This document shows, piece by piece, positions 4,651 to 61,164 of a stretch of DNA of 64,000 bases; the stretch's first letter is position 1, and every line of letters starts with the position of its first letter. A model generated the notes under the pieces. The model worked only from the letters and a program-made list of their open reading frames with translations. It was not told the origin of the DNA and made no database searches. The stretch spans positions 30,715,801 to 30,779,800 of the forward strand of contig JAWZYU010000019.1 in assembly GCA_038380435.1 (NCBI GenBank), in the 5' to 3' direction. Origin of the DNA: Ryuthela nishihirai (Eukaryota > Arthropoda > Arachnida > Araneae > Heptathelidae). The position numbers and the translations under genes were made by a program.

Positions 4651-4819
4651 TTACTAAGCCTCTTTTTTCACTCGGGCCGTTTTTTTTTATGTATACTGGT
4701 ATAATTTACTCCTGATAATATTGAAAAAAAAAAAAAAATAAATCGGAACAGATTTATTTGCATTGAAAGATGGTTTAATAATAATAGAAGTAAACTGAAT
4801 ATTAAAAAAATATATTTGA
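4651..4819. other. AT-rich spacer
   Basis: T and A runs between the minisatellite hairpin and the LINE remnant. Nothing is recognised. Confidence 0.4.
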
Positions 4820-5768: not shown

Positions 5769-6515
5769 ATTATGTTATACGAGAAACCAATACAAGTCAA
5801 AAACTTACAAGTTATCTCCGTTCTTCGCGTATTCTTTTTTTAAATTAAAAATTTAAAAATGATGTGTAAAAAAGGGCTGAAGGCAAAATCTAGTCTCAAT
5901 GAACCTGAACGCCATTCAGCTATAAACTTTTTCCCTTTGTTTTAATGGTCTTTAACAAATTTTTTGAAATATACACTGCCGGAAACTGAAAAAAACTTTA
6001 GTGGAAACAACTTGCTGGGAAAGACAGTGATTACACTTGTGAAGTGATTTAATGTTTATTTTACCTTTCAATGAGTATTACATTTTTACAGAAGGCACAT
6101 TTTAATAAGGGTTGAACCTCCTCGAGCAGCAATACAAGCTTCCAATTTGGCATGCAATCGGTCGTACAAATGCTGGATATCACGCAAGAGGATACTATTA
6201 CATGCGCTTTCAACTGGACGCGTAATTCAGCAATGGTCGTTACCTGCAGCGATCCGCGTAAAAGTCTTTGTCCGATCCACTACCAGACATGCTCGATTGG
6301 AGACAAGTCCGGAGAGCGTGCTGGCCAAGGGATTGGTGCACTGCCTGAAGAGCATGTTGAGTTGCCTGGACAGAGTGTGGGCGGGCATTATCTTATTGGA
6401 ATATCGCAATTGGGACTACACTCAAGTATGGCAGGACGACCGGCTGTACGCTGTCACTGACATACGTATTGCTATTCAGCGTACCCTGTACAAACACCAG
6501 ACACGTACGAGAGTG

Positions 6516-6890
6516 GGGCGGGGGTGGCTCAGTCGGTAGCGCGCCAGGCTCGTAATCTGTAGTTCCCAGGTTCGAGTCCCAGCTGGGTCAGCGTTGAGAT
6601 TTATCTCCGCAAAATTCCCTGCCCATGGTCACTAGGGACACCGATGGGCTTGGAAAGGCCGCCGTCCATCGGATGGGACGTTAAGCCGTGGCCCCGTGTG
6701 CTGGAGAGCCATACCCTGTGCACGTTAAAGAACACGCTGGATGGCCTTGACGGGAGACTGCCATCTGTCTCCCAACAGTTGTTCCAGTGGATCCCCTCCC
6801 CCAACCTTCTCTGAGCCTTCGGGGTCCATGTGACCTGGCCATTTAGCCCATGGTGTGCAAAAAAGTGCCGCTCAGAGGTAAAACAACCCA
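6516..6890 (+). repeat. Full-length SINE-A inside the Tc1 element
   Basis: Complete unit from GGGCGGGGGTGGCTCAGTCGG to AAAACAACCCA. The flanking 13-base ACGTACGAGAGTG at 6503-6515 and 6891-6903 is a perfect target-site duplication, so retroposition was recent relative to decay of the Tc1 host element. Confidence 0.97.
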
Positions 6891-7115
6891 ACGTACGAGA
6901 GTGATAGCTAATCGCTCCCCCACAGCATGATGCCCGGTGTGGGACCTGTGTGACGCTGGCGGATGCGCGATGGAAGAAGCTGCTCACCTGGTCGCCTTCG
7001 GATCCGTAAAAGTTCATCAGAAGCTCCTAAGCAGAAACGGCTTTCATCACTGAAGATCATAGACTGCCATTCTTCCCTTCAATGAACTTGTTCTTGACAC
7101 GACTGCAAACGTGCT

Positions 7116-7184
7116 CGAGAGTGACGAGGTGACAGTGGTAACCGTGCCAGCGTCATATGTGCCACTGTCACCTCGTCACTCTCG
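7116..7184. repeat. Fold-back, 23-bp perfect arms
   Basis: CGAGAGTGACGAGGTGACAG plus TGG at 7116-7138 is exactly reverse-complemented at 7162-7184 with a 23-base loop. It lies in the transposase region and inverts a piece of coding sequence, as expected for a template-switch event. Confidence 0.9.
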
Positions 7185-7756
7185 AAAAGACGATTGCATA
7201 CTGTTCTTGTAGACACCCGGTATAACAGAGTATCGAATTTGTGATGCTGTAGCTATCCGCTCTGCCACTGCTGCCCTCCTGATACACCGTTCCTCTTCTA
7301 TGTCCGTAACTCTGTGTTGCCCAGAACCACGTCTGTGAGTGTGCGAATGCTCTTCTGACCATCGACGCCACCATCGTACCACTGCCGATACCTCTCGTCC
7401 AACGCAGTGTGCAATTTGATGAAAAGACCAACCTGCTTCCCGAAGACCCACTATACGACCTCCCTCAAACTCCGCTAATTGAACAAATGTTGCACGCCTG
7501 TGTCGTCCAGGCGTGGTAGCTCCTTCAAAGTGCACTGAACATCACGACACAAGACGAATAACTTCTTTCTTCACGCCCTAGTCCTAAATACGCGCTGCGT
7601 ACATTTACATGTTGTCGTCCTCAGTGACGTCATTATTTCGTCCAATGACTTTCAATCTTGGATCACGATTTCTGCTGCCCTTAACTATTAACGTATTATA
7701 ATATGACGTTTCTAAAGTAATTCCTTCTGGGTGTTCTTTTTCAATTTCTGCCAGTG

Positions 7757-8071
7757 AATGAAGAATATGTATAATAGTTATATACTCCCTCTACCCTCCC
7801 CCCCCCCCCCAACACACACAACTCCCGGATCTGGCCCTTGACGATTTGAGTATCACTATAACTATGTAACTTGTATCGTAATAAGTAATCCAAACTGGAG
7901 TGTGAACATAGAGAATATAAATGTTTCTTCTACAGCGTGCTGACGTCAGCGCATGCAATGTAGCTTATGTAGAACGCAAAATTTTTAGAAAGTTCATCTA
8001 AATTTCGACAGGTTTTGCCACCCCTTCCTGTAATTCCCCAGATACTTAATAGAATGGCCGTAAATTACGTG
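7757..8071. other. Spacer with poly-C tract and possible hAT-like MITE end
   Basis: A C run followed by ACACACAC at about 7797-7822, then CCGGATCTGGCCCTTG, which resembles the right end of the hAT-like MITEs at 23952, 30655 and 35354. No gene is seen. Confidence 0.35.
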
Positions 8072-8492: not shown

Positions 8493-9089
8493 CTCAGAAG
8501 AAATCATTTTCCTTCTTTCTTATCGCAGTGAATGATGACCGAAATAGAAAAAAGACCGATGAGAACTCGACACCAACAATGTGTGTCAGAAAACGCCGAA
8601 GAAAACACTCCAGTTGGAAACAAAATGAGAAATTGAACGGGAAACCTGCAATCACAGGAAGCCGAACTCTTCTCTCGAGAAAAAAAAACACGCTCTCAAA
8701 GAGAAGAGGAAGGGGGAGGAGAGAGGGGAAACGAAATCAACTGCTTGTGTACCAAAAACAACTGTCGGTGATGAAATTTTTCAGACTGAATCAACGCAGC
8801 ATCAAGCTTGTGTTTGCCGATAATAGAACGGAAAGAAAAATCGATAGGAATATTTGGGAAAATTCTCCTATTACTTCGCATCCCAGCCAGACTAAATCAT
8901 TGTCGCAGGGGATCAAAATAGAGATGAAAATAATGATGACGTCACTAATGCTTACCAAGGATGATTTTCATCAGGATCTTAGACTGCACCCTTTAATCAG
9001 AAGCTTTAGATGGTGTGTGTGTGGGGGGGGGGATAAAGGTTTTTTTTTTTGGTGCATAATTTATTTCTTGATGTTGTCGGATGAGAAGT

Positions 9090-9324
9090 TGGGTTGGGTT
9101 GTTTTACCTCTGAGCGGCACTTTTTTGCACACCATGGGCTAAATGGCCAGGTCACATGGACCCCGAAGGCTCAGAGAAGGTTGAGGGAGGGGACCCACTG
9201 GAACAGCTGTTGGGAAACAGATGGTAGCCTCCCGTCAAGGCCATCCAGCGTGTTCTTTAACGTGCATAGGGTATGGCTCTCCCGCACACGGGGCCACGGC
9301 TTAACGTCCCATCCGACGGACTGG
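9090..9324 (-). repeat. SINE-A 3' half, minus strand
   Basis: Runs from GGGTTGGGTTGTTTTACCTC to CATCCGACGGAC, so only the core and 3' half are present. It is high-identity to the intact copies. Confidence 0.95.
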
Positions 9325-9817
9325 ATGAGAAGACTTGATGTTCTGTTTACAATAGTTTTGAGACAGCACGATGAGGTCGCCGATGGTACCTGTCAATGCT
9401 TTTGCATCAAGGCTTCGGCGTGGGACTTTTTCTGTACGCTGCAGATGTCAGTATTTCTCTGTGATCTAATTGTAATACCTGAAAGCTTTTTCTATTCCGT
9501 GAATGGAGAGGATGCTTTAGTGCTCTTTCTATAGTAATTATTTTAACAATGTTTTGGGTGGGTTTCGTTGAAATATGAATTTTGGTACTAATATCCTCAA
9601 GGATATTGCTTGCATAATAATACTTGTTTTAAGTTTACAAAACGTTAACAAGAACATATGTAGGTTATCTAAGAGCTATAAATATTTCTTACGGATTACA
9701 AAACTTTGATAGTAGCGTGAGCACAACGTTTAATATAACATACAAAGAGAATAATTCAAAATTAGTACAAATAGAGGTGTATATATACAAATCAGTAAAT
9801 AAAAAAGTCAAAAGACA
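9325..9817. other. Unassigned sequence
   Basis: A 146-codon frame covering 9094-9534 is mostly antisense SINE-A with an unrelated tail. The remainder is AT-rich. Nothing is supported as a gene. Confidence 0.4.
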
Positions 9818-20847: not shown

Positions 20848-21090
20848 TATGGGTTAGTTTATATCTGAACAGCACATTTTTTTAACACAGTGTGTGCTAA
20901 ATGTCTGGTCACGAAGTCTCCAAGGTATCAGAGAAGGTTCCGGGCAGTGGTTCCTCTGAACAACTGTCCGGAACCTTCTCTGATACTGTTAGGAGACAGG
21001 TGGCAGCCTACTTTCAGGGCCACCCAGCGTTTCTTTAACGTGCACATTGTATGGCTCTCCTGCACAGAGGGACAGGGTTTTATGTCCCAT
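20848..21090 (-). repeat. Old SINE-A, minus, 3' half, with fold-back
   Basis: Inverted arms GTATCAGAGAAGGTTCCGG (20925-20943) and its complement (20968-20986) with a 24-base loop sit within this copy. The copy continues after the inserted unit at 21098-21482. Confidence 0.85.
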
Positions 21091-21097
21091 CCGATGG

Positions 21098-21482
21098 GGG
21101 GCGGGGGGTGGTTCAGTCGGTAGCGCGCCAGGCTCGTAATCTGTAGTTCCCAGGTTCGAGTCCCAGCTGGGTCAGCGTTGAGATTTATCTCCGCAAAATT
21201 CCCCGCCCTGCCCACGGTCAGTAGGGGACACCGATGGACTTGGAAAGGCCGCCGTCCGTCGGATGGGACGTTAAGCCGTTTGTCCCGTGTGCGGGAGAGC
21301 CACACCCTGTGCACGTTAAAGAACACGCTGGATGGCCTTGACGGGAGGCTACCATCTGTCTCCAAACAGCTGTTCCAGTGGGTCCCCTCCCCCAACCTTC
21401 TCTGAGCCTTCGGGGTCCATGTGACCTGGCCATTTAGCCCATGGTGTGCAAAAAAGTGCCGCTCAGAGCTAAAACAACCCAA
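21098..21482 (+). repeat. Full-length SINE-A nested in an older minus copy
   Basis: A short duplication CCGATGG (21091-21097, 21483-21489) flanks it. The target is the CCATCCGACGGAC core of the older SINE-A. Confidence 0.95.
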
Positions 21483-21700
21483 CCGATGGACGTCTGTTTT
21501 TCGTAGCCCAACCGTGTATCCTTTCTCACAAAGGAAAGGGTGCATATAAAACTTAACAGTGACACAATTAGGAATTTACGTAAGAAATGGCGGAAGAGTT
21601 ATTTTCCTTTTCCCTTTTCGTGAGAAGGTTAAAATATAAATTGTTTTTGAAGTTATTGTGAATTCCCATGGTGTCACCTCTCACACTTCACATTTTATCC

Positions 21701-24915: not shown

Positions 24916-25016
24916 AGGATGGGAATTGACTCAGTCGGTAGTACACCAGTATCCTAATTTACAGTCCTCAGGTTTTAGTCGCAACTCTGCCTGCGTTAAG
25001 AGTTTTCGCCGCTAGT
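24916..25016 (+). repeat. Old SINE-A head fragment
   Basis: TTGACTCAGTCGGTAGTACACC to CGCCGCTAGTCCC, diverged and truncated. Confidence 0.7.
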
Positions 25017-25450
25017 CCCCCCCCCCCCCCCACACACACACACGGGGGCGGGGGTGGCTCAGTCGGTAGCGCGCCAGGCTCGTAATCTGTAGTTCCCAGG
25101 TTCGAGTCCCAGCTGGGTCAGCGTTGTGATTTATCTCCGCAAAATTTCCCCGCCCTGTCCACGGGCAGTAGGGGACACCGATGGGCTTGAAAAGGCCGCC
25201 GTCCGTCGTATGGGACGTTAAGCCGTGGCCCCATGTGCGAGAGAGCCATACCCTGTGCACGTTAAAGAACACGCTGGATGGCCTTGACGGGAGGCTACCA
25301 TCTGTCTCCCAACAGCTGTTCCAATGGGTCCCCTCCCCCAACCTTCTCTGAGCCTTCGGGGTCCATGTGACCTGGCCATTTAGCTCATTGTGTGCAAAAA
25401 AGTGCCGCTCAGAGGTAAAACAACCCCCCCCCCCCCCCACACACACACAC
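25017..25450 (+). repeat. SINE-A inserted in a poly-C/(AC)n tract
   Basis: A full-length unit (25044-25424) is bordered on both sides by a C run followed by ACACACACAC, as expected for a duplicated low-complexity target. Confidence 0.93.
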
Positions 25451-25485
25451 ACCATCACCACTACTACCACCACCTACCCACCATA

Positions 25486-31230: not shown

Positions 31231-32453
31231 ATAATGAATCTTTCGTTCATGTTTTCTTCAGTTTTATTTTTTCAACAAAATAATTGAACTTCTAATTATC
31301 TTTCACCACGCTATCTGGCCATAATCAATTTGGCAGACTCTTACTCCCCGTTTTAAACCGTATAACGCTTCATCAATTTAGTTGTCCTTCTCTCTCTTCG
31401 AAATAATGGACCTTTTACCTATTCTTCTACGCGTCTCAAAAGAAAAAACTTCTTTTATATTAACATCATGGCTTGAAATGTTACATTCCCCGCAACCCGA
31501 TCTCCAGATGACGAAATAAGACTCGAATCTCTCCCTAACACGAAGGAAAGCACATTAGCGTAATGTTCTAGTCAATGTAGAGAGATTTCCTTCCGAATGA
31601 ACTAATATTTTCGAGAGCTGGAAAAAAGAGGGAAAAGTACACGATGATTGTTCTGCTTTAATGTGCCTCTGAATTTGCTTTCAGATTTCCGCGTTCCTAA
31701 TTTGTCATGATCTGCAATCTTCTGTTTTGGCAATGTTCGACCAGAACCCATTAAAGGAGAGAGAGTTTATCTCTCTCTGTGCTAACATTCTTAAGTAATT
31801 TCTTTCTTTCTTAACTAAGATCAAGAATCTTCGACATCCATAAGTTGCTGGTTATTCATTAAGCATCGCCATCAACGAGATCTCGTTTATTCTAACAAAG
31901 GAACTTGATTGCTGTTATTTAGACAACGTTTTTTTTTTTTAAATCATTTAATGGAATATATTAATTAGTATGCATTCTTGGACAGTATTCTCACACTTCC
32001 ATGGCTTCCAAACCGAAAGCCATATTCAAGGCTCCTTAAATTTTGAAAATAAGCTTTCTAATAAAAATCCGCATTAACTTTTCCTAAATCTCAATTTTTG
32101 AACACAACTATTTCGGAATGCAACAGTATTCGTTTAATATTTAAAGAGCTATCGAAGCTGGAACATTTAACAGCATCAACATTGTACTGAATCTAAGCGA
32201 TTTTTCCTTGAAACTGCCACTTTGAAAGATTAATTAAATAATTTTTAAATTACTTTTATTTTAGTAAACAACTTGTTATAATACTTATTATTTTTGTTTT
32301 AAAGTTCTTGAGGCAAAAATCTTACGACTATCAACGTTGCTGCTAAAAATCAGTTTTTTCATAATTTTTTTTAATATTAAATAAATATTCATTGCAATCG
32401 AGATTCTGAGAGATTTGATTAGGTTATTAAGGTTTATCTCCTGAGAAATGCGG
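31231..32453. other. AT-rich sequence without recognised genes
   Basis: No exon with splice borders and no transposon ends recognised. The segment at 32120-32200 (AAAGAGCTATCGAAGCTGG) recurs in related form near 11125 and 12530, hinting at an unrecognised old repeat. Confidence 0.4.
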
Positions 32454-33218
32454 GATGGGAGTGGCTCAGTCGGTAGCGCGCCAGGCGCGTAATCTCCAGT
32501 TCCCAGGTTCGAGTCCCAGCTGAGCCAGCTTGGAGATTTATATCCGTAAAACTCCCCTCCTGCCCTCGGTCAGTAAGGGACACCCGATAGGCTTGGAAAT
32601 GCCGCCGTCCGTCGGATGGGACGTTAAGGCTGACCCCGTGTACGGGATAGCCATAAACTATGCAATTTAAAGAACATACTGGATGGCCTTGACGAAAGCA
32701 TAACATCTGTCTCCTAACAGCTGTCCAGTTGATCCCTTCAACCCTCTGAGCCCTAGGGGTCCTTATGACATGGGGGCGGGGGTGGCTCAGTCGGTAGCGC
32801 GCAAGGCTCGTAATCTGTAGTTCCCAGGTTCGAATCCCAGCTGGGTCAGCGTTGAGATTTATCTCCGCAAAATTCCCCGCCCTGCCCACGGTCAGTAGGG
32901 GACACCAATGGGCTTGGGAAGGCCGCCGTCAGTCGGATGGGACGTTAAGCCGTGGCCCCGTGTGCGGGAGAGCCATACCCTGTGCACGTTAAAGAACACG
33001 CTGGATGGCCTTGACGGGAGGCTACCATCTGTCTCCCAACAGCTGTTCCAGTGGGTCCCCTCCCCCAACCTTCTATGAGCCTTCGGGGTCCATGTGAACT
33101 GGCCATTTAGCCCATTGTGTGCAAAAAAGTGCCGCTCAGAGGTAAAACAACCCAACCTTATGACATGGACATTTAGCCCATTGTGTGCAAAAAAAAGTGA
33201 CGTTCTGAGGTAAAATCC
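32454..33218 (+). repeat. Old SINE-A split by a younger SINE-A
   Basis: The older copy is 32454-32773 and 33156-33218 and is complete apart from the insertion. Confidence 0.92.
32774..33155 (+). repeat. Full-length SINE-A nested in SINE-A, 13-bp TSD
   Basis: CCTTATGACATGG at 32761-32773 and 33156-33168 is a perfect duplication of the older SINE's 3' part. Confidence 0.97.
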
Positions 33219-33221
33219 AAA

Positions 33222-33283
33222 ATACTGGGAAATGCAAATTACGTGTTTGAGGCGCTCCCGACTGAGTCAACCCCCGTCCAAAG
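33222..33283 (-). repeat. SINE-A head fragment, minus
   Basis: Complement of the tRNA-like head (GGGAAATGCAAATTACG...GACTGAGTCAACCCCCG). Confidence 0.75.
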
Positions 33284-47518: not shown

Positions 47519-48204
47519 CTATCTATAGTAAGACCAATAATAAAAGTGATCTATAAGCACTAACTTAACAATATACGTTTTTAAATAGTTAATATTTCTG
47601 ATAAATTCGTGATCCAAGCAAATACCCATGTCATATCTAGTGATAGCCTCATGTGAAGGGCTAAAACCATTTGCAACTAGCAAATTTTTATGCTCTTGGA
47701 CATAAAAACTAGTTCCCAAGCGATCAATATTGAAATCTCCTGTCTCAATAACAAATATGTCATATATATGAATTAATTTTGATTCCAATTTTTCATTAAA
47801 AGACTTAATTGAAAAGTTATGTATTCTATAAAGTACCCATAAGCAATATTCCACTTAGATTTAAATAAATGTGATCCATAATATATAACAATGATCAAAA
47901 TCATATAACAATTTTTTTAAAGATATATTTTTATTGATATAAACTATTTAATCACCAGATTTATTATGATTCCATATTTACAATATGCATTAAATTCTTC
48001 AATTTCATAATTCATTGATAATTTTCCTTAATCGAAATCTCCGGCAATATTATCATATCAGGTTGCAAATTTGCAAAGTACAGAAAAAGAAAAAAAAAAT
48101 ATCGAAAATTTTCCTAACGCTCTTAATATTGCCCTGTATAATTTTTAAACCTTTACCCCAATTGTATTGATTTTTATCATATACATTTTCATTCTCAATA
48201 CAGA
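47519..48204 (-). pseudogene. LINE endonuclease domain, broken
   Basis: An APE-type endonuclease read on the minus strand: KIIQGNIKSVRKIFDIF near 48158-48108, then PDMIILPEISI (counterpart of P-D-[IV]-[IL]-x-[LI]-x-E), and in the 111-codon frame 47854-47519 the blocks ETGDFNIDRLG (GDFN) and CLDHEF...KLVLIDHFYY (counterparts of the T-x-IDH and SDH motifs). Frameshifts break it. The 5' side is cut off by the Polinton-like insertion at 48205. Confidence 0.85.
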
Positions 48205-48735
48205 AGTATTTTCAAGACAGGATAGCGTACCCCCACTAGTGCTTTCCCCTTATGACGTCACAGGTCACGCCCCCTTATTAATATTCATAATTATTTAAAA
48301 ATTAATCCACCTTTATTAAAAAATCCTCCCCACTTTATTAAAAACCCGTGGCGCCATCTAGTGCATATGATGAGTACTATTTTTTTTAGAAAAACCCTCA
48401 ATTTTAGTCGTAATTTTCCAAATTTTGACATCCCCTCATTAAACCCCCCTTTATCAAAATTCCTCCCACTTTATTAAAAAAAAACGTGGCGCCCTTAGTG
48501 TGTATGATGAGTACTATTTTTAGAAAAAGCCTTCAATATTAGTCGTAATTTTTGACCCCCCCCCCATTAAAAAAACCCTTATCAAAAGTTACAACCCCCT
48601 TTATTAAAAAAACTCCTTATCAAAAATTCTACCCCCTTTAAACTCCCCCTCAGCGATTGCAAAATCCCGTCCCCTGGTATTTACTCTCATCTGAAATTTT
48701 CCAAGTCCAACTAAACTTTGGGTGGCAACGATCAG
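48205..48735. repeat. Left terminal inverted repeat of the Polinton-like element
   Basis: Matches the complement of roughly 57145-57969, with gaps. Inside are repeated blocks of CCCTTTATTAAAAA-type sequence and two copies of a segment containing GTGGCGCC-TAGTG-ATATGATGAGTACTATTTTTAGAAAAA (near 48349 and 48485), also present twice in the right repeat (about 57615-57660 and 57738-57790). Confidence 0.88.
48253..48260. promoter_or_regulatory. CRE-type palindrome TGACGTCA near the left end
   Basis: An exact CREB/ATF consensus 49 bases inside the left end. The same octamer is at 57914-57921 in the right end and at 46930-46937 in the miniature element. A regulatory role is inference. Confidence 0.5.
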
Positions 48736-48871
48736 AATGGCTGATGCAATCCTCTAAATAATTACAAAACTAAACTTTGGGTGGCAACGATCAGAATCTC
48801 TGATGCAATCCTCTAAATAATTACAAAACTAAACTTTGGGTGGCTGATGCAATCCTCAAAAATAATTACAA
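48709..48871. repeat. 59-bp direct repeats (2.75 copies) inside the left end
   Basis: Units AACTAAACTTTGGGTGGCAA... start at 48709, 48768 and 48827; the third has an internal deletion. The right end has single diverged counterparts near 57140-57180 and 57360-57425. They could be iterons for replication or packaging, by analogy only. Confidence 0.85.
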
Positions 48872-49033
48872 GGTCCCCATATTTTGCTCATACCGTGTGT
48901 CATGTGTTCTTTGATCGTATCACGTATTTATCAGATAGGAGATGTGTAAAGGTCGTGGTTCTGGTTGTATATAACGGATGGAAAAGGTCTGTATTTCAAA
49001 GTTTCTTCTGAGCTACGTGTTATAGTTGTCACA

Positions 49034-49281
49034 ATGGATTTTGGACGAGTGACGAGGATTCAGGCTACGAAAGCGAGCCTCAACACTTCAGGCCGCATAT
49101 CTGTCGGTTGTTACGTCAACCTGTGGTTGTGCCTCCTCCTCCACCACCCCCACCACCAACTGTTAGAATGGAGCTACGTCCTGGGTTTAGTGGTCCTACG
49201 CTTCAAGCCGTTCTTATTGACGATGAGACACCTCTACTAACACCGAGACCACAACGCTCTCTGGTTATAAAACCCGCCTGA
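49034..49281 (+). pseudogene. Proline-rich ORF, unknown function
   Basis: Starts at ATG 49034 (MDFG). A one-base shift near 49050 gives a 77-codon frame to the TGA at 49279-49281 containing DEDSGYESEP, a run of nine prolines with VVVPPPPPPPPP, and a tail QRSLVIKPA. There is no known domain. It is the first gene in from the left end; acidic-plus-polyproline composition suggests a regulatory or adaptor protein, but that is a guess. Confidence 0.5.
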
Positions 49282-49439
49282 AACCTGGCCCCCTGGTCTG
49301 TGGCAGAACATCATTCCGGCCCTGAGCACGTCAAGCATCGGAGACGTCTCTAGTCTTGCCTGTGTGAAGTCGCTAAGCGTTTGCCTTCCATCTTCTGTAT
49401 TCGAATTAGGGTGAATTAGTTTCAGAGTGGTTGTGAAAC

Positions 49440-49965
49440 ATGCAAAATATCTGTATAGTTCTAGATCTCAACGGTTTTCTGTAAACGGCCATTTCCTAGT
49501 GCGTGAACTTGGATATGCAACTCTGAATGGTAAACAAGGCGTCTATCGGTTCAATCTTCGACATTACCAAGCTTTGTCGACAAAGGACAGGAAGACAGTC
49601 AACTACGTGTCTAAACATATGTTAGGCCTACCCTTTTCATCCTCTACCTAGCGAAAATGGATGGACGTTAGATCACGATCCTAACATCGTGAAATATGCT
49701 TACAAACTTGCACATACTGAAGAAACTAATGTGGTGGGTTACAAAGGAGGAAATGTGGAAAGAATTCTCTTGGAACAATTAAATCTTCCCAGCGTTAATC
49801 TTGAACTTTACGGATGTCCCAAATATTGTGAGCTCCCAAAAGTTTCTTTTATTGTGAGCTCCCAAAAGTTTCGAGTGTGGATATCACACAGGAGAGGGAG
49901 TCCACTGGTCTTTAGCCGAAACAGCTGTTTTTTTTGCATGGATTGATCGAGGCTTCAAGTATTGA
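49440..49965 (+). pseudogene. RNase H-fold exonuclease-like protein, frameshifted
   Basis: ATG 49440 opens MQNICIVLDLNGF, a hydrophobic strand ending in D-x-x-GF as in DEDD-type or related RNase H-fold nucleases. The reading then shifts frame (near 49480 and 49640) through FLVRELGYATLNG, VGYKGGNVERILLEQLNLPS and NLELYGCPKY, and ends with a C-x-x-H...HWSLAETAVFFAW block and a TGA at 49963. A 23-base tandem duplication (TATTGTGAGCTCCCAAAAGT plus TTC, at 49824 and 49850) breaks the frame near the end. Proteins with this layout recur as unnamed proteins in arthropod genomes. The nuclease role is inferred from the pattern only. Confidence 0.6.
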
Positions 49966-50109
49966 GAACATGTTACACCAAGTGTTGCATCACCAGGTGT
50001 TCGCCTATCGGACTATCAGGTTTTCTGTATAATTATCGTTCCTCATTCCAGAGGGTGGCGCTGTCTCTAGTTAAATAGGGGGCAACCGTCGAGTGTGTCA
50101 TTGTCCACG

Positions 50110-50903
50110 ATGCAGGCTAGCAATCCAGATGCATGGTGTCTCAGTGAAGATGTTTACATCGTGCCTTCGCTGTTCAAAAATAAGTTTTCTGTGCACATAC
50201 ATCGCTACAGAATTATGAAAATGGTGAACTCATCTACCCAACACCTGCAGGGTTTACCCTCTCCATACCTGAATGGGAGGCTTTGTGTGCCACGGTGCCC
50301 CACATAGAGGACCAAGTGAAAAACGGTCCCGATCAGCAGACATGGCACGTGATGCCTAGTTTACGTGCCTACATGTATCGCAATGAATGTGGTGAATGCT
50401 GTGTCGACTTCATCAAAGAATCAGCTGCTATGAGAACTCTACAGTTCCGTGTTGTGAGTCGCAGTATAACTCTGAACTCGTTGCAGTAGTTTACGTTGGC
50501 TATCCATGTAGATGAACTGATGCGTGTCGTGCATAATGTGTATGGAACTCTCAAAGATCACCATCTCCATATTGCTATTATGGAACATTCTGAATCAGTT
50601 CTACCCTTCCTGCTGGGTCCTGTTTTCAAGGGACCCGAGTGTGTTTATCAGCTGTTGGTGGACATTTTCCAACAAGAATGAACACGTCTGATTCCGTTAG
50701 ATGGACAACATCCTGAAGAAAAACTACTGACCATCGTAGGGTGGTCTGGTGACTTGGACATTAACGCCTTGACACAAGTGTTTGTGGATACAGCCTGGAA
50801 AAGAGGTCTGTTGAATTATGTAGATTCTGGATTTGTGTGTACTCTGAAATGTAAAACTATTGTGGACGATGCAAAAAATGAAATGTATAAATTAAATAAA
50901 TAA
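50110..50903 (+). pseudogene. PC4-like DNA-binding protein, broken
   Basis: ATG 50110 starts MQASNPDAWCLSEDVYIVPS. After KFSVHIHRYR a frameshift near 50215 leads into ENGELIYPTPAGFTLSIPEW and EALCATVPHI. The order F-x-[VI]-x-I-[RH]-x-Y, NGE-x-x-PT-x-x-G-[FI]-[ST]-L, W-x-x-L matches the PC4/p15 single-strand DNA-binding fold. The downstream part continues in one frame to TAA 50901 but carries an in-frame TAG (50487-50489) and TGA (50679-50681). Total length would be about 265 codons, longer than cellular PC4. In the element it may replace a viral single-strand binding protein; that is inference. Confidence 0.6.
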
Positions 50904-50957
50904 TTGTAACCTATATAATGTGTCTGTCTTTTCAACCTATGTCATTTTATTCTTGGT

Positions 50958-51179
50958 ATGAATAGGAGAAAGAAGGTGTTAGCTAGTGTTGGAAGTGTAA
51001 TCATAACAGTGTTAACGATAGTGGTGCTTGTATTAGAACTTTTGGTCCCTAGTAAAAATATTCAGTGTGGAGAGTCAAAAGTCTTAGGCAGTGAATACAA
51101 AATTCGCATGTATAACTTAATAGTGGACATCAGACAGTTTATAGGAGACATCCCTACAGTTACAGGTGTTGCACTTTAA
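50958..51179 (+). CDS. Small single-pass membrane protein
   Basis: An intact 73-codon frame. A short basic N terminus (MNRRKK) is followed by a 20-residue hydrophobic helix (about residues 10-29) and a mixed C-terminal part ending TVTGVAL. The N-in, C-out or signal-anchor topology is a prediction. It sits between the PC4-like gene and the integrase. Small membrane proteins are common in virus-like elements, but no specific homologue is recognised. Confidence 0.6.
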   Translation: MNRRKKVLASVGSVIITVLTIVVLVLELLVPSKNIQCGESKVLGSEYKIRMYNLIVDIRQFIGDIPTVTGVAL

Positions 51180-51187
51180 TTACACCA

Positions 51188-52035
51188 ATGGCAAAACCTG
51201 TTGGGATATGACGTTTGGGTGCAGCAGAAAACAAAACTTTGGAATCCCATTATTTCGACCCTGAAAGAGGATTCGGTAGTGTAAAAAAGTTAGCTCAAAA
51301 TACAGGACTGCCACTGAAACTTGTCTGAGAATGGTTAGAAAAACAACCCGCCTACATGCTACATAAACCTGTTCGCAGAAAGTTCCCCCATAACAAAGTT
51401 TACATCACAGGTTTAGACAAACAATGGCAAGCCGATCACGTAGTTGTGAAAAATCTAACTCGCTTCAATGACTGTTATCGCTACATATTAACAGTCATCG
51501 ATGTGTTCTCAAGGTATTGGTGGGTGGTGCCTATGAAGACAAAAACAAGGAAAGAAATGATGTTGGCTTTCAAAAAAATCCTTTCCAAGGGGCGATCTCC
51601 CATGAATTTAAATACGGATCAAGGTACCGAATTTACCAACAGAGTGTTCCAGAAATTCTTGAAAAAGAAAGGTATTCGATTCTTCGTCACCTACTCTGAC
51701 AAAAAAGCAGCTTTGGTGGAGAGATGGAATCGCACACTATGCGAGAGACTGGGGAGATATTATACATGTACCCTTCAAGAAGGCATGTATGCATTTGTGG
51801 ACCGAAGAAATTTTTATAGTCAACAAGGTGTTACAACTTCAACCTCCTGTATATGTCATATGGGATTCCGGGGGAGAAGTGAAGGGAACATTCTATAAAT
51901 CGGAACTTCAAAAAGTGACCGAACCCGAACTTTGTTGAGTAAATAATCGGGAGAAAAGGTCAAAACGCACTGGTCAAATTTAGTGGTTATCCCAAACCTT
52001 CATGGATTCCTAAAAAATGGATAGTTTCTACCTGA
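51188..52035 (+). pseudogene. Polinton-type DDE integrase with chromodomain-like tail, broken
   Basis: Would insert element DNA with a 6-bp staggered cut. From ATG 51188: an N-terminal part with HYFDPERGFGSVKKL, then EWLEKQPAYMLHKPVRRKF. The catalytic core has QWQADH (first Asp, codon at 51434), VIDVFSRYWWVVP, NTDQGTEF (second Asp) and ALVERWNR (Glu); the spacing between the second Asp and Glu is 33 residues, near the usual 35. After a break near 51790 the next frame reads WTEEIFIV...GTFYKSELQKV, then a chromodomain-like VKFSGYPKPSWIPKKW. In-frame TGA codons occur at 51209 and 51326. Very characteristic of Polinton integrases. Confidence 0.92.
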
Positions 52036-52079
52036 CCCTACCCTTCACGGTTAGATAGAATATTTACCCAAACAATTCG

Positions 52080-53058
52080 CAGAGTGATTTCATGGTTCGT
52101 CTAGCATAACCCCTAAGACTAAGTGGAAAATGGAAAGTGGGACTAGCAGAAGTTCACTTACCCATGAGCTGGTACAATGTGGATAGTTCTAATGACACGT
52201 ATGAATATTATGCTCCTGCACCCTTTGAAGAATACTGGAAAATCAAGCTTAAACCAGGCAAAATAACTCGAATGGAACTGTTGTCTCTCACCTCTCCACT
52301 CAACTCCCCAAAGAAATATTGGTGTCATATAACAATTGTTACTGGGTATTCAAACCAAGTGAGGGATACGTTTTGATGTCCCTAAAACGAATTTCAGCAG
52401 GCTTCTGTGTGTCGGCGAGGGAGAAGTTGGCAAACCCTTCCACTAACGATTTGTTAGCAAACTTTGCAATACTGCAACATTCGAGATAGATGATGACTGT
52501 TATTTCTACGTGATTCCACTGGGTAGTTTCCACGAACGAAAGGTACCCCACGGACGATACGAAACTGCTGAATCATTATTCGATGCAATGAACCAGGTCA
52601 TGCCCTACAAGTTGAGAAAAGCTTACAGTTTCAAGCAACAGGCAGATCACACCGTATTGATGGATACAGACAAGTTACATTTCATTAAATTCTCTCATTC
52701 AAACCCCGGATTAGGAGACATGCTAGGAATCACTAAATTAGATATTCCACTGAATAAAGCCATGGGTGACTACCCCATCGATATGAACAGAGGAAAGTAC
52801 AGTATTTATTTGTATTCAGACCTGATTGCACCTCAATTGTTAGGCGATACTCATGGTGAACTGTTGCATGTTGTGAATCTTGCCGTCAGAACCAGTAATA
52901 ACAAAATAATCATTGCAGTGTCTCAACAACCTGATTACTACCCCCTGGCAAGAAACAGTTTTGAGAGTGTAAGAATATTCCTTTGTACCGATACAGAACC
53001 TCTGCATTTTAAATTCGGTAAACTTTTAGTCAAGTTACTTTTCTGCCATGAGGGTTAA
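52080..53058 (+). pseudogene. Penton / minor capsid protein, broken
   Basis: Structural protein expected at virion vertices. The N-terminal half is spread over frames with GLAEVHLPMSWYNVDSS (typical W-x-VGLAE-[IV]-x-x-P-x-SW region) at 52137-52200. The long open C-terminal frame 52510-53058 has YVIPLGSFHERKVPHG, GDYPIDMNRGKYSIYLYSDL with IAPQLLGDTHGELLHVV, and NSFESVRIFLCTDT...FKFGKLLV. The same order is seen in the minor-capsid/penton proteins of Polintons and adintoviruses. At least one frameshift lies between 52376 and 52510. Immediately upstream of the pX-like gene. Confidence 0.85.
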
Positions 53059-53431
53059 ATTCGTTCCCTCTTCTGCAGACACCTATGTGAGGTACTACAA
53101 GAGCCAAAGAGGGTAGGGTGTGTTCAGGGGCCCTCGTTATCAGAGAGGTGACAGGCTCGGTAGCATCTTTGCCACTATTGGACGTTTCATCAGCCCTCTC
53201 GTACGACCGCTGCTGTCCACCCTACGTAAGGGTGGGTTACGGTTCGTTTCAGAGATGGCCCAAGGGCAAAACTTCAAAGCGGCCACCAAAGCAGGGTTGC
53301 GTGAAGCCGGTGTAGACCTCTTGCAATGTTCCAGTTCCAAGCTGCAGGGAGGAAAAGGGATAAAACGCTGTCGTCGTCATCCTAGTGTTCATAAAGTGAA
53401 GACTCTGTACTATAAAGGACGTGTTTTCGTC
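53048..53431 (+). pseudogene. Basic pX-like virion protein
   Basis: ATG 53048 overlaps the end of the penton frame. It is rich in Arg, Lys and Gly and includes RGPRYQRGDRLGSIFATIGR, FISPLVRPLLSTLRKGG, then AATKAGLREAGVDLL. This combination (G-rich start, hydrophobic FISPLVRPLL helix, basic tail) is the layout of the small pX/core-associated proteins of adenovirus-like elements. One in-frame TAG at 53114-53116. Without further stops it reads straight into the capsid start at 53432. Confidence 0.65.
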
Positions 53432-54725
53432 ATGAGCATTCAGAAAATTCACGCTGATTCTGGGGATTGTAGCAGTTCCGAACTGGACCTGTTTCTGGTT
53501 CCTCCCACTGTCTCACAACTGGAAAGAGGGTGCTATGTTAATTATTTACCTGTGGCTTCGCTGGAAGGTAAAGCACCACTTGAATTCCTCGTGAAAGGAA
53601 CAGATGATTACATTGATCCATTCCGCTGTCACCTGTGCCTCATCTTGAAAATTGTGAAATCCAATGGTACACCCCCGTCGGAAGTGATTGCCCCCTGCAA
53701 TCATTTCTTTCACGCCCTCTTCAATCAAGTAGACGTCTTCCTCAACGATCACCTAGTGAGTGCTTCTCACACCCTGTACTCCTACAGGGTGTACCTGGAG
53801 ACTATTGAATTACAGTAACAATGCCATACAAAGTCAGCTCGGTACGTTACTCTGGTACCTCGACACCCCCGGTAAAATGGAACTGACCAGTCGGGACAAC
53901 GAGGGATGGCATCAGCGCAGGGGGTACGTCAAGTCAACAGGTATCGAACTCATCTCGTGGATCCATGCCGACCTGTTCAATCAAGAACGTTACCTACTCA
54001 ATCAAGTCGATCTGAGACTGTGTTTGTTAAGGTCCAAGCCCGAATTCTATCTCGTGACACTGAAGCAGACCCCTCTTACAAAGTATAGATTCACGAAACT
54101 GAATTTTTCATGAGCAAAGTCAAACCCACTTCCAGTGTCATCCTTGCACACGCTTGTCTACTGGGTTCAGAGAGTGCCAAGTACCCCCTACGAAGAACGG
54201 ATTTACGCATGTTCTCCATCGTTGCTTGTCTGACGAGTGTGAACCATGACAATTTATTTCTTGGCCAACTTCCAGTATATCTGGTACTGGGTATGGTGGA
54301 AAGTACCAGTCTGAATGGATCGTACGAAAACAAATCTCTTCCACTTCCAACATTTCGACTTAAACTATATCAGCCTTCACATTGACAGTGATCTGCAGTC
54401 CTACATCCCAGACTTTATGAATGGACGCTATCTCCGATGTTACCAAGGATTATTGGAAGCTCTGGACGCGTGGAAATCCGATAGTGGTATTAACTTATTG
54501 CGAAAAGCCTATGGCAAGGGTTTTACACTGTTTGGATTCCAATTGACCCCCAAGCAACGTGAATGCAATCAAGTGTTTTCTTTAATAAAGAGTGGTAGTG
54601 TGAGAGTCCAATTCAAGTTTACCAAGCCACTATCCACATTAGTCACTGTAATCCTCTATGTAGAATACCAGAATTTGCTGGAAATCCCATTGGATCGTAA
54701 AATCCTGTTTGACTACAGCTCATGA
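53432..54725 (+). pseudogene. Major capsid protein, F54H12.2-like family, frameshifted
   Basis: ATG 53432 starts MSIQKIHADSGDCSSSELDL, with ELDLF-x-VPPT then following. Other blocks are DDYIDPFRCHL, FFHALFNQVDVFLNDHLVS, TLYSYRVYLETI, ISWIHADLFNQERYLLNQVD, KVKPTSSVILAHACLL, ESAKYPLRRTDLR, DNLFLGQLPVYLVLGM, GKGFTLFGFQLTPKQRE and VILYVEYQNLLEIPLDRKIL. The order agrees with proteins widely annotated in invertebrate genomes as F54H12.2-like, which I take to be the double-jelly-roll-type major capsid of this group (inference). Frame changes near 53815, 54110 and 54350. Total about 430 codons, the usual size. The stop (TGA 54723-54725) overlaps the ATG of the protease by the ATGA pattern. Confidence 0.88.
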
Positions 54726-55168
54726 ATACCTATCAGTTACAATCCATCCTCTCGATGTTACCTACAAGTCTTGGTGTGTTCCCACGTGACAGACTACCTC
54801 GCAGAATCGACCAGTCAGAAGCCTTGTTTATCTACAATACTGATCCGTCCTCCCTGCCTGGAACCCACTGGAAAGCTGTTTAGAAGAAAGGAATGCATGT
54901 GGATCACTTTGACTCCTTGGGCACAAGTCCCGATGTGTCCATGCAAGAATACTACAGTCAGCTAGGCATACGTCACGTGTTACACCCCTCGATACCTCTG
55001 CAGGACCCTATGGGAGACACTTGTGGTGCTCACTGTCTGTATGTCCTGTTTAAAAGAGCGAGCGGTTCGACTCTTCCCACAGTATTGCATCGTGATTACA
55101 CGTGTAGAGTAGACTTTAACGACTGCGTGGTGGTACGATGGCTCTCCAAACTCCTTCAAATATTTTGA
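54722..55168 (+). pseudogene. Adenain-like maturation cysteine protease
   Basis: 148 codons. The catalytic triad pattern is visible: His49 in GTHWKAV, Asp64 in HFDSLG, Cys101 in GDTCGAHCLY, with Gln94 (IPLQDP) as the likely oxyanion residue. This is the C48/C5-type fold used by adenoviruses and Polintons to process capsid proteins. One in-frame TAG (54881-54883), four residues after the His, separates the His from the rest; otherwise open. It overlaps the capsid stop at its start and the ATPase start at its end. Confidence 0.88.
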
Positions 55169-55765
55169 TTGCCGTTCCTTCTCAGTGTGGAAAGACGACT
55201 TTCACTCTGAAACTCATCAAAGAATCCGCTCAAGTGTTCGAACCCCCGTCCTAACGTGTCGTTTACTGCTATGGGGAGTGGCAACCTGCCTTTGAACCCT
55301 TTAAGAAAACTGGAATTTTATGAAGGACTACCTGTAGATCTGGAATTTGACCCCCTCAGACCTACTACGCTTCTGGTACTGGACGACTTGATGGAACAGT
55401 CTGTAGCTAGCGAACGCATATCTCAATTGTGTTTTCGTGGCGGTCATCATAAAAATATCACGATTGTCCTGATCTTGAAAAATCTGTTTTTAAAGAGAAG
55501 ACATTCGAGAACTATATCACTCAATGCTCACTATATGTTTTTATTTCGCAACTGTCGGGACGTTTCACAAATAACGCATCTGGCAAGACAAGTATTTCCA
55601 CATCATTCCAAACTCCTGACTGATGCTTATAGACTAGCAACACAACCTCCCTGTGGCTATTTGTGCGTGGACCTCCATCTCAAAACGTTAGATACTGAAA
55701 GGCTCCGTGCAAAGATCCTCCTTTCAGAAGAACCCGAGATACTCTATGTCCCAAATGAAAGTTAG
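55138..55765 (+). pseudogene. Packaging ATPase, FtsK/A32-like, broken
   Basis: ATG 55138 begins MALQTPSNILIAVPSQCGKT: Walker A with GKT at residues 18-20, with Ser in place of the usual first Gly. TAA at 55252 and a frameshift near 55315 follow. The next frame has TTLLVLDDLMEQS (Walker B, Asp codons near 55382), GGHHKNITIVLILKNLF and SLNAHYMFLFRNCRDVSQI, ending at 55765. The enzyme would drive DNA into capsids. It starts inside the end of the protease frame. Confidence 0.9.
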
Positions 55766-56075
55766 ATCTCAAGGCCTGTTCCTTCAGTGTTTACCAAAAC
55801 TTGGGGGAAAGCAACGTGCAGCTCTGTTGAAGCACATCTCTGACCCTCAGATGTATGCTCTATGTGAAGTGTGTACCAATTTCTTAAAAGGCAATATACC
55901 TGGCTCCCATCGAGTATTAAGGAATTTACGAAGTCACAAGACTGTCATAAGAAGTTTAGCTTCCAAACGTGCATTTGTCCGTCACAAGAAACGTCCCTTG
56001 CAAAAGGAATCGGAATTTTTTCTCCCCCTCCTCACTGCTGCATTACCTCTGTTGGGATCGTTATTTCGAAAATGA
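55755..56075 (+). CDS. Small basic protein with hydrophobic C terminus
   Basis: An intact 106-codon frame. It has Lys/Arg-rich middle segments (LRNLRSHKTVIRSLASKRAF, RHKKRPLQ) and a C-terminal hydrophobic stretch FFLPLLTAALPLLGSLFRK. A similar small gene follows the ATPase in related elements, possibly a minor virion protein with a membrane-active tail. Function is not established. The start overlaps the ATPase end by 11 bases. Confidence 0.7.
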   Translation: MKVRSQGLFLQCLPKLGGKQRAALLKHISDPQMYALCEVCTNFLKGNIPGSHRVLRNLRSHKTVIRSLASKRAFVRHKKRPLQKESEFFLPLLTAALPLLGSLFRK

Positions 56076-56333
56076 TTTCAGTGAAGGCTGTTCAAAGACA
56101 AAACATACGAAAAAAAGTGCGTGATTCAGACACAGAGATGATTATTTAACCAACAATTGGAAGCCCCCCACGAGGTCAAGGTTGACATTCCACAGCAAAT
56201 ATTATCAGTACCTCTGTCGAGACAGAAAATATTATCAGAGACTTTTGGTCAGCCTCAAGACGACATTGTCGATTTTGTTCAACCCCCCATCCATCGAAAG
56301 AAAAGGAAATTAATTGACTGGACTCCATATTGA
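56071..56333 (+). pseudogene. Short lysine-rich ORF, frameshifted
   Basis: ATG 56071 overlaps the preceding stop (ATGA). It reads MISVKAVQRQNIRKKVRDSD, then a stop at 56146. The next frame continues with SVPLSRQKILSETFGQPQ and ends HRKKRKLIDWTPY at TGA 56331-56333. No domain recognised; last gene of the element. Confidence 0.45.
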
Positions 56334-57144
56334 AGATATCTGTTTGAAGAATTGTGTTAAAAATATGAAAGATTCATGTTAAAAATATTGTATGCCTTGT
56401 GTTAAAATGAAACAATGTATTAAAAATTTGTGATATTCAATAACAAAAATTAAAATTGATATACATCTCTGTGTTGTTTACATGAATTAGTTTTTTACAG
56501 CACCACTAGATGGCTCTCCTCTGAAGCATTAGCTTACGAACTCTACTCCTTAAATAGCACAAAGACAGACTTCAAAACTAAGAGCAAAAACTTCTGACCA
56601 GTAGCAAGGAATGACGTAGCAAGTGGCGTGCGAGCTTATATACAGGCAAATGTTATCTCATAAACACCCTAGATACATCTTTCGACATGATCAAGGTTAA
56701 ACGACCTTTACCAATATCTGATAAGCCCCTCGTGAGATAGTTCGGAGTAATCATTGGGAGTAAAGCGCAGTCTGAATTATTTACTTAGTTTCTATTTTTA
56801 ATGAAGGAAATCGTTTATCAGTAGCAAATGTAAACAGATAGTGCATTCACCCTTTGACAATGTAGCGATAAGAACCATCACTCGCTCTGGCGCAGTTGAA
56901 GCTTGTAGATATTAAAATACAAATTCAGATCTTATCAGCAACAAATGCAAATACTGCGCTGCAGATAGTGTGCATTGGTTGTTCTGTCTGCAATCACCCT
57001 CTTGACCTCCTCACCCAATAAGAAGAGACCTGTATCATGCGTTCTGCACGTTTGTTGCAACATGTACGTCACACGACTTGATGAAGATCGAATTTGCAGA
57101 ATATGTAACTTTGTTCAATAATTGCATCAACCGTTCTGAGAGTG
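56334..57144. other. Non-coding right interior of the Polinton-like element
   Basis: Two AT-rich stretches and no frame of note. It is too short for a polymerase gene. TAGCGATAAGAACCATC and similar give nothing recognisable. Confidence 0.6.
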
Positions 57145-57969
57145 GGTTGCCACCAAAAAAAAGTTTAGTGGACTTGGAAAATTTCAGATGAGGTTAGATA
57201 CCAAGGAACGGGAGTTTGTGATCAGTGAGGGGAAGTTTTAATAAAGAGGGGGCAGTACTTTTAATAAGTGGGGTTTTAATAAAGGGCAGGGAATTTTAAT
57301 AAAGGAGGTGGAACTTTTGATAAGGGGTTTTTTAATGAGGGGATTAAAAAATTGGGACTTTGGCTGATGCAATCCTCAAAAATAATTACATTCTGATTGC
57401 TGCCACCCAAAGTATAGTTGGTAGAAACTCTGGGACTTATTCGGAGATTTCTAATAAGGGGGGAGTTTAATAAAGAGGGAGAGGAATTTATTTAATGAGG
57501 GGGGGTGGAATTTTTGATAAGGGTTTTTTTAATGAGGGGGCAAAACTTTTGATACGGGGATTTTTAATGAGGGGAGTCAAGAATTACGACTAAAATTGAA
57601 GGCTTTTTCTAAAAATAGTACTCATCATACACAATAGAGGGCGCCACGGGTTTTAAATAAAGGGGGAGGGATTTTTGATAAAGGGGTTTTTAATGAGGGG
57701 AGGTCAAAAATTGGAAAAATTACGACTAATATTGAGGGTTTTTCTAAAAATAGTACTCATCATATACACTAGATGGCGCCACGTGTTTTTCATAAAGGGG
57801 AGGGATTTTTAATAAGGGGGATTAATTAATTATTAATTATGGATTATCAATTATAAATTACGAATTATTAAATATTAATTATGGACATTAAGTGTGAATA
57901 TTAATAACTGCTGTGACGTCATAGGGGGAAAGCACTAGTGGGGGTATGCTATCCTGTCATGAAACTACT
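57145..57969. repeat. Right terminal inverted repeat of the Polinton-like element
   Basis: Complement of the left repeat, longer by expansion of the AATAAAGGGG-AGGG type blocks. It contains TGACGTCA at 57914-57921 and ends GAAACTACT. Confidence 0.88.
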
Positions 57970-57999
57970 TACAGGCGATGTTATTAACATTGTCACAGC

Positions 58000-58475
58000 A
58001 GTCATCAAAATCATCACACATTTTATCACACATTATACACCTTATCACACATCTTATCACATATTATACATCTTATCACACATAATATACACCATATCAT
58101 CACATATATTATACACCTTATCATCAGACATCTTATCACATTTATACATCTTATCACACATCTTATCCCATCTTATTACATATTATACATCTTATCACAT
58201 ATTATACATCTTATCATCACACATCTTATCACATATTATATATCTTATCACATCTTATACATCTTATCATCACACATCTTATACATCTTATCACACATAT
58301 TATACATCTTATCACACATATTATACATCTTGTTATCACACATTTTATACATCTTGTTATCACACATATTATACATCTTATCACACATATTATACACCTA
58401 TCTTCACACATCTTATCACACATCTTATCACATATTATTCATCTTATCATAACACATCTTATCACATAGTAATAT
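58000..58475. repeat. (ATC/ACA)-rich minisatellite
   Basis: Irregular repeats of ATCTTATCACACAT and ATTATACATCTTATCAC, 14-33 bp. A 185-codon frame spanning 57938-58495 is its translation (His/Thr/Tyr/Ser repeats). It lies within the LINE, between ORF1 and the insertion site. Confidence 0.88.
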
Positions 58476-59814: not shown

Positions 59815-60590
59815 GGAGTGCGGGTGCTCAGTCGATAGCGCGCCAGGCTCGTAATCTGCAGTTCACAGGTTCGAGGCCAGCGTTGAGATTTATCTCCGCA
59901 AAACTTCCCCCGGCGCACCCTTCGTCCATAGGGGATACTGATGGGCTTGGAAAGCCGCTGTCCTTCGCATGAGGCGTAAAGCTGGGTCTCTGTGTGGGGT
60001 AGAGCCATACCCTGCGCATGTTAAAGAACACGCTGCATGCACTACTGCATTGACTGGAAGCTAACATCTGTCTCCCAACAGCTGTCCAGTGGGTCCCCTT
60101 CCCCCAACCTTTTCTGAGCCCTCAGACTCCTTGTGACAGTGGGGCGGGGGTGGCTCAGTCGGTAGCGCGCCAGGCTCGTAATCTGTAGTTCCCAGGTTCG
60201 AGTCCCAGCTGGGTCAGCGTTGAGATTTATCTCTGCAAATTTCCCCGCCCTGCCCACGGTCAGTAGGGGACACCGATGGGCTTGGAAAGGCCGCCGTCCG
60301 TCGGATGGGACGTTAAGCCGTGGCCCCGTGTGCGGGAGAGCCATACGCTGTGCACGTTAAAGAACACGCTGGATGGCCTTGACGGGAGGCTACCATCTGT
60401 CTCCCAACAGCTGTTCCAGTGGGTCCCCTCTCCCAACCTTCTCTGAGTTTTCGGAGTCCATGTGACCTGGCCATTTAGCCCATGGTGTGCAAAAAAGTGC
60501 CGCTCAGAGGTAAAACAACCCAACCCTTGTGACAGCCATTTAGCCCATTGTATGCAAAAAAATACTGCTAAGAGATAAAATAACCGAGTC
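59815..60590 (+). repeat. Old SINE-A split by a younger SINE-A
   Basis: Older copy 59815-60139 and 60525-60590; its head has lost several bases (GTGCGGGTGCTCAGTCGATAG). Confidence 0.9.
60140..60524 (+). repeat. Full-length SINE-A nested in SINE-A, 11-bp TSD
   Basis: CCTTGTGACAG at 60129-60139 and 60525-60535. The same part of the older SINE was hit as in the 32774 insertion (CCTTATGACATGG). Confidence 0.96.
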
Positions 60591-61164
60591 AGATATCACC
60601 TATTTACGGAAAAGATCTTGTTTAGCCTTTCGAATTGAAATATCCTATAAAAAAATATAATGCACAAGAAAAAAAACACTGCAACCAAAAAACCCTCTGA
60701 CTTTTTGAATATTTGCTGTTAGTTTCTAAAGAAGGCGTTTTGCCGTCTCGAATAGGCTGTTTTTTTTACGACTGCCACAAAAGAAAGTATTTAAACGGAA
60801 GTAAAAAACGAGAAAAATCCTGTTACACTGTCGTCGCCTTATTTTTGTTATTTTTTTTTAGAAAATATTTGCTTTTTGCTGCCAGTTTCTCCAGGAAATG
60901 TAACAGAAGTATCAAAATCAGATTTACATTCGTGCATGACGCCATCAGTTGAATCTTGACAATTGCAATACGTGTTATAAAAAAACTATCTTTTGTATTT
61001 TCCAGTTTTGTGTGTCAAAAAATGGTTTGAAATTAATTCTTTCTGTTCACGGATATGGACGTCTGCCAGTTTCCATATTTATGGCAGATTTTTTTTCTTT
61101 ATATGAAATTACGTGAAGTGAGAGGATTGTCTTTTATATAAATTCCCAAGGGGAAGGTAAGACG
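60591..61164. other. AT-rich spacer
   Basis: No recognised gene. Confidence 0.4.

Follow-up and report, generated by a model that had tools for sequence, protein, structure and literature searches.

The locus and its genes

A Polinton element of 9,765 bp lies at positions 48205–57969 of a 64,000-nucleotide stretch of the genome of the spider Ryuthela nishihirai (contig JAWZYU010000019.1, positions 30,715,801 to 30,779,800; hereafter, the window). The element carries an integrase and a block of virion-type genes without a gene for DNA polymerase B (PolB). Our analysis indicates, with a probability of roughly 93%, that it is an old, decayed Polinton/Maverick copy in which an internal deletion at position 56558 removed the PolB zone. 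Its termini are of the AGT...ACT type, with AGTATT at the start and ACTACT at the end, and 55 of 60 terminal bases are identical between the two inverted repeats. Local alignment of 48205–48739 with about 57389–57969 gave 460 matches, 51 mismatches and 94 gap columns, corresponding to repeats of about 0.55 kb with arms mismatched at 51 of 511 aligned bases. A first-pass annotation of the window had described AG...CT ends, long inverted repeats and a 6-bp target duplication; the ends and repeats are borne out, and the duplication is present but imperfect, with TACAGA on the left and TACAGG on the right (5/6 identical).

All genes of the element lie on one strand, as the annotation had stated, here the + strand, in the order ORF1, ORF2, PC4-like, transmembrane-type, integrase, penton-like, pX-like, major capsid, protease-like, ATPase, orfE and orfF (Table 1; ORF, open reading frame). 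The full virion gene set attributed to the element is, however, not intact. Gene decay was judged against 11 open frames of one sister copy (the protease only in part, orfE outside the comparison), and a stop or frame change interrupts the window counterpart of each of the 11, with the integrase short by about 60 residues. Decayed as it is, the integrase still matches PF00665 (rve) at 1.3e-15, confirming that identification, and the other nine window pieces gave no convincing match in the Pfam scan.

The capsid pieces of the window match the capsid frame of a relative, which has 1265 homologues at E <= 0.001, the best at 5.6e-128 among the 120 matches listed. Several of these are named F54H12.2-like (from sea urchins, a sea cucumber and a spider), proteins that we take to be adintovirus hexons. 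Identity to the relative's frame reaches 47% for the best unnamed homologue and 45% for a gastropod homologue among the matches listed. A model of the gastropod protein (P0034, pLDDT 76.8) matches the double jelly-roll capsids of iridovirus, PBCV-1 and Sputnik, with a best E of 2e-14. By way of this homologue model, the predicted major capsid of the window is of the double jelly-roll type, and the F54H12.2-like capsid of the annotation is upheld. A comparison with PDB sequences gave no direct match, and the capsid alignment contained no relatives from viral contigs.

Other gene labels stand in part. The penton-like protein has 35 distant homologues, but its model (pLDDT 61) had no PDB match at E <= 0.001. 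The protease-like gene is presumed to be one from a motif recognised by eye, which Pfam did not confirm (no match). The ATPase prediction draws on a weak Pox_A32 match in a relative (1.1e-3, below the curated cut-off), the window piece itself having no Pfam match. As for replication genes, Pfam gives no support to the RNase H-fold-like gene proposed earlier. The PC4-like gene, whose Pfam matches in relatives (2.1e-5 and 1.6e-4) fall short of the curated cut-off, was rejected as a PolB substitute because PolB-bearing copies carry it too.

Table 1. Features of the element and of its surroundings, in window positions
Feature	Position	Strand	Remark
Left target-site duplication, TACAGA	48199..48204	.	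5/6 match to right flank
Left terminal inverted repeat, starts AGT	48205..48739	+	39 other scored genome rows match its first 60 bp, including the window's own right end
ORF1 remnant, proline-rich, frame-shifted	49030..49336	+	59-64% to a relative
ORF2 remnant, stops and frame change, no known family	49440..50013	+	
PC4-like gene remnant, frame change and 2 stops	50110..50900	+	comparison with relative
Small transmembrane-type protein remnant, 1 stop	50958..51281	+	transmembrane nature by eye
rve integrase remnant with stops and frame changes, short by about 60 residues	51188..52032	+	PF00665 1.3e-15
Penton/minor-capsid-like gene remnant, stops and frame changes	52017..53055	+	homologues; fold not confirmed
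pX-like small basic protein remnant, 1 stop	53048..53401	+	pX label is the first-pass name only
F54H12.2-like double jelly-roll major capsid remnant (predicted), stops and frame changes	53432..54722	+	relative's frame; homologue model
Adenovirus-type cysteine-protease-like remnant, 1 stop in compared part	54726..55165	+	motif recognised by eye
Packaging ATPase remnant (predicted)	55138..55762	+	comparison with relative
orfE, family ORF, open over 109 aa	55746..56075	+	
orfF remnant, small family ORF	56072..56330	+	
Deletion junction	56558..56558	.	11 related loci with 2.3-12.6 kb here; 7/11 with opposite-strand PolB in probed stretch
Right terminal inverted repeat, ends ACTACT	57389..57969	-	
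Right target-site duplication, TACAGG	57970..57975	.	imperfect, 5/6
Dispersed '..SERHFFAHHGLNGQVTWTPKAQRRLGEGTHWNS..' repeat	6601-7026, 9085-9534, 20928-21575, 25012-25473, 32434-33266, 60260-60595		

Immediately beside the right end of the element, window 57979–58470 is a low-complexity tandem array of ATCACACATCTT-like units. Full or partial copies of a dispersed repeat whose translation shows a recurring '..SERHFFAHHGLNGQVTWTPKAQRRLGEGTHWNS..' frame are numerous within the window.

A private deletion junction at 56558

The absence of a PolB gene, as first annotated, holds for the window, where the best tblastn match has an E of 0.37. The accompanying view that about 7.3 kb of coding sequence is fully accounted for without PolB has to be revised: a segment is gone at 56558, so the figure describes a deleted copy. 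The host genome (one assembly; 3.11 Gb in 1680 contigs) was searched with window 56200–56860, and 41 rows were scored, the window and 40 others, as the best of 1382 candidates. The 40 other rows either stop at query position 306–359 or begin at 359–391. None of these 40 best rows crosses 56558, and the window alone spans the junction. At 11 loci both halves of the query occur in order, with 2.3–12.6 kb of extra DNA between them. In particular, in a copy on contig C20 (C and L numbers are our handles for contigs and loci), window 56233–56512 corresponds to L009:7530–7234 and window 56587–57094 to L009:2698–2223, with PolB in between. The window sequence skips from L009:7234 to L009:2698, that is, over the PolB zone of the C20 copy. 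The lack of crossing rows together with the extra DNA at 11 loci therefore points to the window as a private internal-deletion copy. A copy sharing the junction would be expected directly after the window in the ranking unless much diverged, and none stands there.

PolB in sister copies

The first-pass annotation had suggested searching with the terminal 60-bp sequences for further copies, to see whether intact members are also about 9.8 kb long and lack PolB. The search with the left end (40 rows scored out of 337 candidates) instead revealed facing end pairs on C20 and C1, separated by 12.75 and 12.98 kb respectively, both with PolB. The PolB pieces of these copies lie on the strand opposite the virion block, and three of the four tested match PF03175, at 1.3e-19, 1.3e-13 and 4.7e-9. 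The pair is probably one insertion that was duplicated, because the two copies agree in the sequence beyond one of their ends and in a gap within the capsid gene.

A similar arrangement is found in the best-scoring integrase relatives. With 17 kb fetched around each of the best 10 of 149 other scored rows, PolB was present in 8; it lies on the opposite strand, convergent to the virion block, 6.8–12 kb downstream of where the integrase begins. The 11 junction loci, each probed with a 1.3-kb stretch of the gap, had PolB in 7. Together with the C20/C1 pair, PolB is found at 17 of the 23 related loci examined, the very outcome (most other copies with PolB between such ends) that the first-pass annotation had said would speak for a deletion. 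In the fuller members PolB sits between orfF and the right inverted repeat, on the opposite strand. The 1193-aa PolB frame of a relative matches PF03175 at 1e-41, and a Pfam scan of the whole frame gave DNA_pol_B_2 alone; from its family, the polymerase would be protein-primed.

Two side observations come from elsewhere in the genome. Just left of the C58:2.02 copy, L019:358–1442 encodes a second, more distant PolB, 35–46% identical, which probably belongs to another element. On C28 (26383816–26472429), twelve Polinton-end matches lie on the same strand, and the spacing of eleven is 2,096 bp, double that or about 5,962 bp, in what looks like a tandem array that captured a Polinton end.

PolB-less copies with a repeat insert

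Three copies, C5:47.04, C1:104.5 and C23:60.7, have a gap of 2.3–2.9 kb filled by a repeat that is common to all three and dispersed elsewhere in the genome. No PolB match of note was found in these gaps, which were read but for about 0.5 kb each. The same repeat is present in C13:9.98, where the 1.3 kb read of a 6.3-kb gap contained no PolB. When a 587-bp part of the repeat was compared with the genome (4143 candidates, 40 of them scored), 14 loci aligned with the whole of it or the greater part, among them the Polinton copies C23, C5:47.04, C13:9.98 and C27:63.57. Penton and ATPase probes were both positive in C5:47.04, C1:104.5 and C27:63.57; the ATPase probe alone was positive in C13 and the orfE probe alone in C23, the probes having been placed by offset, so that a miss does not mean absence. 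C13:9.98 and C27:63.57 probably belong with the other three.

The right flanks of C5, C1, C23 and C13 (261–428 bp compared) are unrelated, and all follow ...AAACTACT. Both ends were seen in C5:47.04, at C5:47035729–47048355 (12.6 kb), where AAGATG stands on both sides as a 6/6 target duplication; C1, C23 and C13 are known by their right ends. The differing flanks and the one perfect duplication suggest that a form without PolB but with capsid-type genes has spread to independent sites, its polymerase presumably supplied in trans. In the simplest reading, the repeat would have replaced PolB once, and the PolB-less form would then have moved to several sites using the PolB of other copies. Weighing against such a spread are the number of copies (four or five), the single checked duplication and a tree grouping that is not firm. 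The earlier idea of a family without PolB thus fails for the window copy and survives in another form, that of insert-type sisters at independent sites.

A short frame inside the insert (L046:676–1023, with the same frame in L048, L049 and L051) resembles by eye a piece of a different PolB type. Pfam did not confirm this, giving no match, and the frame has one unnamed homologue at 1.7e-12.

Relationships among the copies

In a tree of 578 columns of the ATPase region with 16 rows, the window joins the insert copies and five PolB copies in a group that is older and star-like. Terminal branches in this group are mostly 0.03–0.06, the C20/C1 pair excepted. The other group, with mostly shorter branches, holds the remaining five PolB copies and a palindromic copy, C15:6.80, described below. 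The four insert rows need two changes on the tree, a value as low in 18 of 500 shuffles, and one change in 8% of bootstrap trees. In penton DNA, the next 39 rows (best of 1377 candidates) are 91–93% alike to the window. Among them, the top row is C27:63.57, of insert type, and C10:49.46, C12:70.92, C17:65.70 and C1:105.43 coincide with PolB matches.

Palindromic copies

The copy at C15:6797685–6813944 (16.3 kb; L031, L032 and L033) comprises two virion blocks arranged tail to tail; the arms are 96–99% alike, the central stretch measures about 105 bp, and no match to PolB lies between the blocks. Both of its ends read AGTAGTTT, and its flanks, GAAAGC and GAAAGG, match at 5/6 positions. Identical ends and nearly matching flanks suggest that the palindrome integrated as one unit, the alternative being a later rearrangement or an assembly error. 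Defective palindromes occur in the linear, protein-primed replication of adenovirus type, and the C15 copy may be a defective product of replication of this kind.

Among the 150 scored integrase matches, four other pairs, C25:38.67, C25:39.06, C27:11.38 and C16:70.83, also stand tail to tail within 20 kb. The two C25 pairs were not counted as integrated palindromes, since they exceed the expected element end or reach the edge of the fetched DNA. Nor was C27:11.38, whose outer match lies, by eye, in another dispersed repeat, the '..SERHFFAHHGLNGQVTWTPKAQRRLGEGTHWNS..' repeat also seen in the window.

Comparison with known systems

Vertebrate Mavericks are reported to have (AGT)2//(ACT)2 end motifs and 6-bp duplications (PMC8097293). 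The window element shares with Polintons/Mavericks an rve integrase, a double jelly-roll capsid (predicted), terminal inverted repeats, AGT-type ends, a 6-bp duplication and perhaps, from the weak match in a relative, a packaging ATPase, as well as PolB in its relatives, and its identity as a Polinton is supported. It differs in being 9,765 bp long and without PolB, against the 15–20 kb given for the group in PMC4028283; the PolB-bearing C20 and C1 copies measure 12.75 and 12.98 kb between end matches. In the window's relatives, in addition, PolB faces the whole block of virion genes, integrase and ATPase.

Adintoviruses are defined in PMC11071296 by an OTU-bearing PolB and an integrase with a chromodomain. 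The window has an rve integrase and an adenovirus-like virion block in common with them, whereas it is without the PolB that this definition needs. A relative's integrase resembles the C-terminal chromodomain type by eye, and Pfam gave rve alone at E <= 1. The same survey describes genomes with adenovirus-class virion genes and without recognizable PolB and integrase (PMC11071296). Polinton-like viruses (PLVs), according to PMC11071308, have virion genes without protein-primed PolB (pPolB), mostly without an rve integrase, and with other replication genes instead. The window copy resembles them in its virion genes without pPolB but has an rve integrase, and its PolB loss is secondary. Among the papers listed in literature searches, judged by titles and the opening of abstracts, none dealt with an animal Polinton subfamily that has capsid genes but no PolB, or with Polinton palindromes.

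Weighing the explanations

Several observations tell against an internal deletion from a PolB-bearing family. PolB was not found at 6 of the 23 loci (C25:46.04, where homology stops inside the capsid gene, C15:6.80, C5:47.04, C1:104.5, C23:60.7 and C13:9.98). The loci examined are near relatives and not a random sample, and the searches scored 40–150 rows from candidate lists of 337 to 7976. In the ATPase region the insert copies are 93–94% identical to the window and the PolB copies 88–92%, and the ATPase tree leaves the window's place and its nearest row unsettled.

The ATPase identity speaks for a different origin, in which the window derives from a mobile, PolB-less subfamily that bears virion genes and is copied in trans by PolB-bearing relatives, its short form being due to further loss of the repeat insert. 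The three PolB-less inserts, the positive penton and ATPase probes at C5:47.04, C1:104.5 and C27:63.57, the four unrelated right flanks with one perfect duplication and the high ATPase identity are all consistent with it. So is C1:104.5, whose right-hand match begins at query 361 and which therefore also keeps the stretch 56558–56589. This stretch is retained in the window, however, while the right-hand matches of C5, C23 and C13 begin at query 390–391; there is no insert sequence at the window junction, and the tree offers no settled position. We regard this origin as unlikely.

A misjoined copy that truly holds PolB would be compatible with our having one assembly. The window copy is, however, about 6–12% different from the others in each stretch compared, and it sits between flanks of its own with a target duplication that is almost perfect; a misjoin would therefore have to fall within one distinct copy, which makes it very improbable. 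A distinct lineage that never had PolB, proposed earlier from the PolB-less window, is scarcely credible and was rejected for this copy, given PolB-bearing sisters with similar ends, the same genes in the same order and about 90% DNA identity in shared stretches, PolB in 17 of the 23 sisters, and a junction found only in the window.

Discussion

We therefore favour an old Polinton copy with an internal deletion. From the protein families involved, the linear element would be copied by PolB, primed by a protein at its AGT-type ends; the integrase would insert it and create a 6-bp duplication, and packaging would fall to the products of the capsid genes. PolB-less members would spread only with PolB supplied in trans from another copy. 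The deletion in the window may have arisen before integration, as a defective genome copied by a helper PolB, or after it, no copy sharing the junction having been found.

A wider reading would join these forms into a satellite-like subfamily in which an unrelated repeat replaced the PolB zone, the capsid-type genes were kept, and PolB-bearing relatives replicated, and perhaps packaged, copies that integrated at three or more independent sites. PolB-less palindromes with terminal duplications would then be fossils of defective genomes that arose in protein-primed replication, and the window a helper-dependent form. With right ends intact in four copies, one of which also shows its left end and a perfect duplication, we consider this reading possible, at slightly less than even odds.

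The window copy itself is ordinary, and the PolB-less, capsid-bearing form that seems to have spread is the part worth following. A lone Polinton without PolB can be a deletion copy, for which a junction query against the genome is an easy check. In Ryuthela nishihirai, one family holds PolB-bearing, repeat-replaced, deleted and palindromic forms side by side. This family lets genome sequence alone address whether Polinton PolB serves other copies in trans and whether packaging and integration extend to defective genomes, questions that bear on Polintons behaving as viruses.

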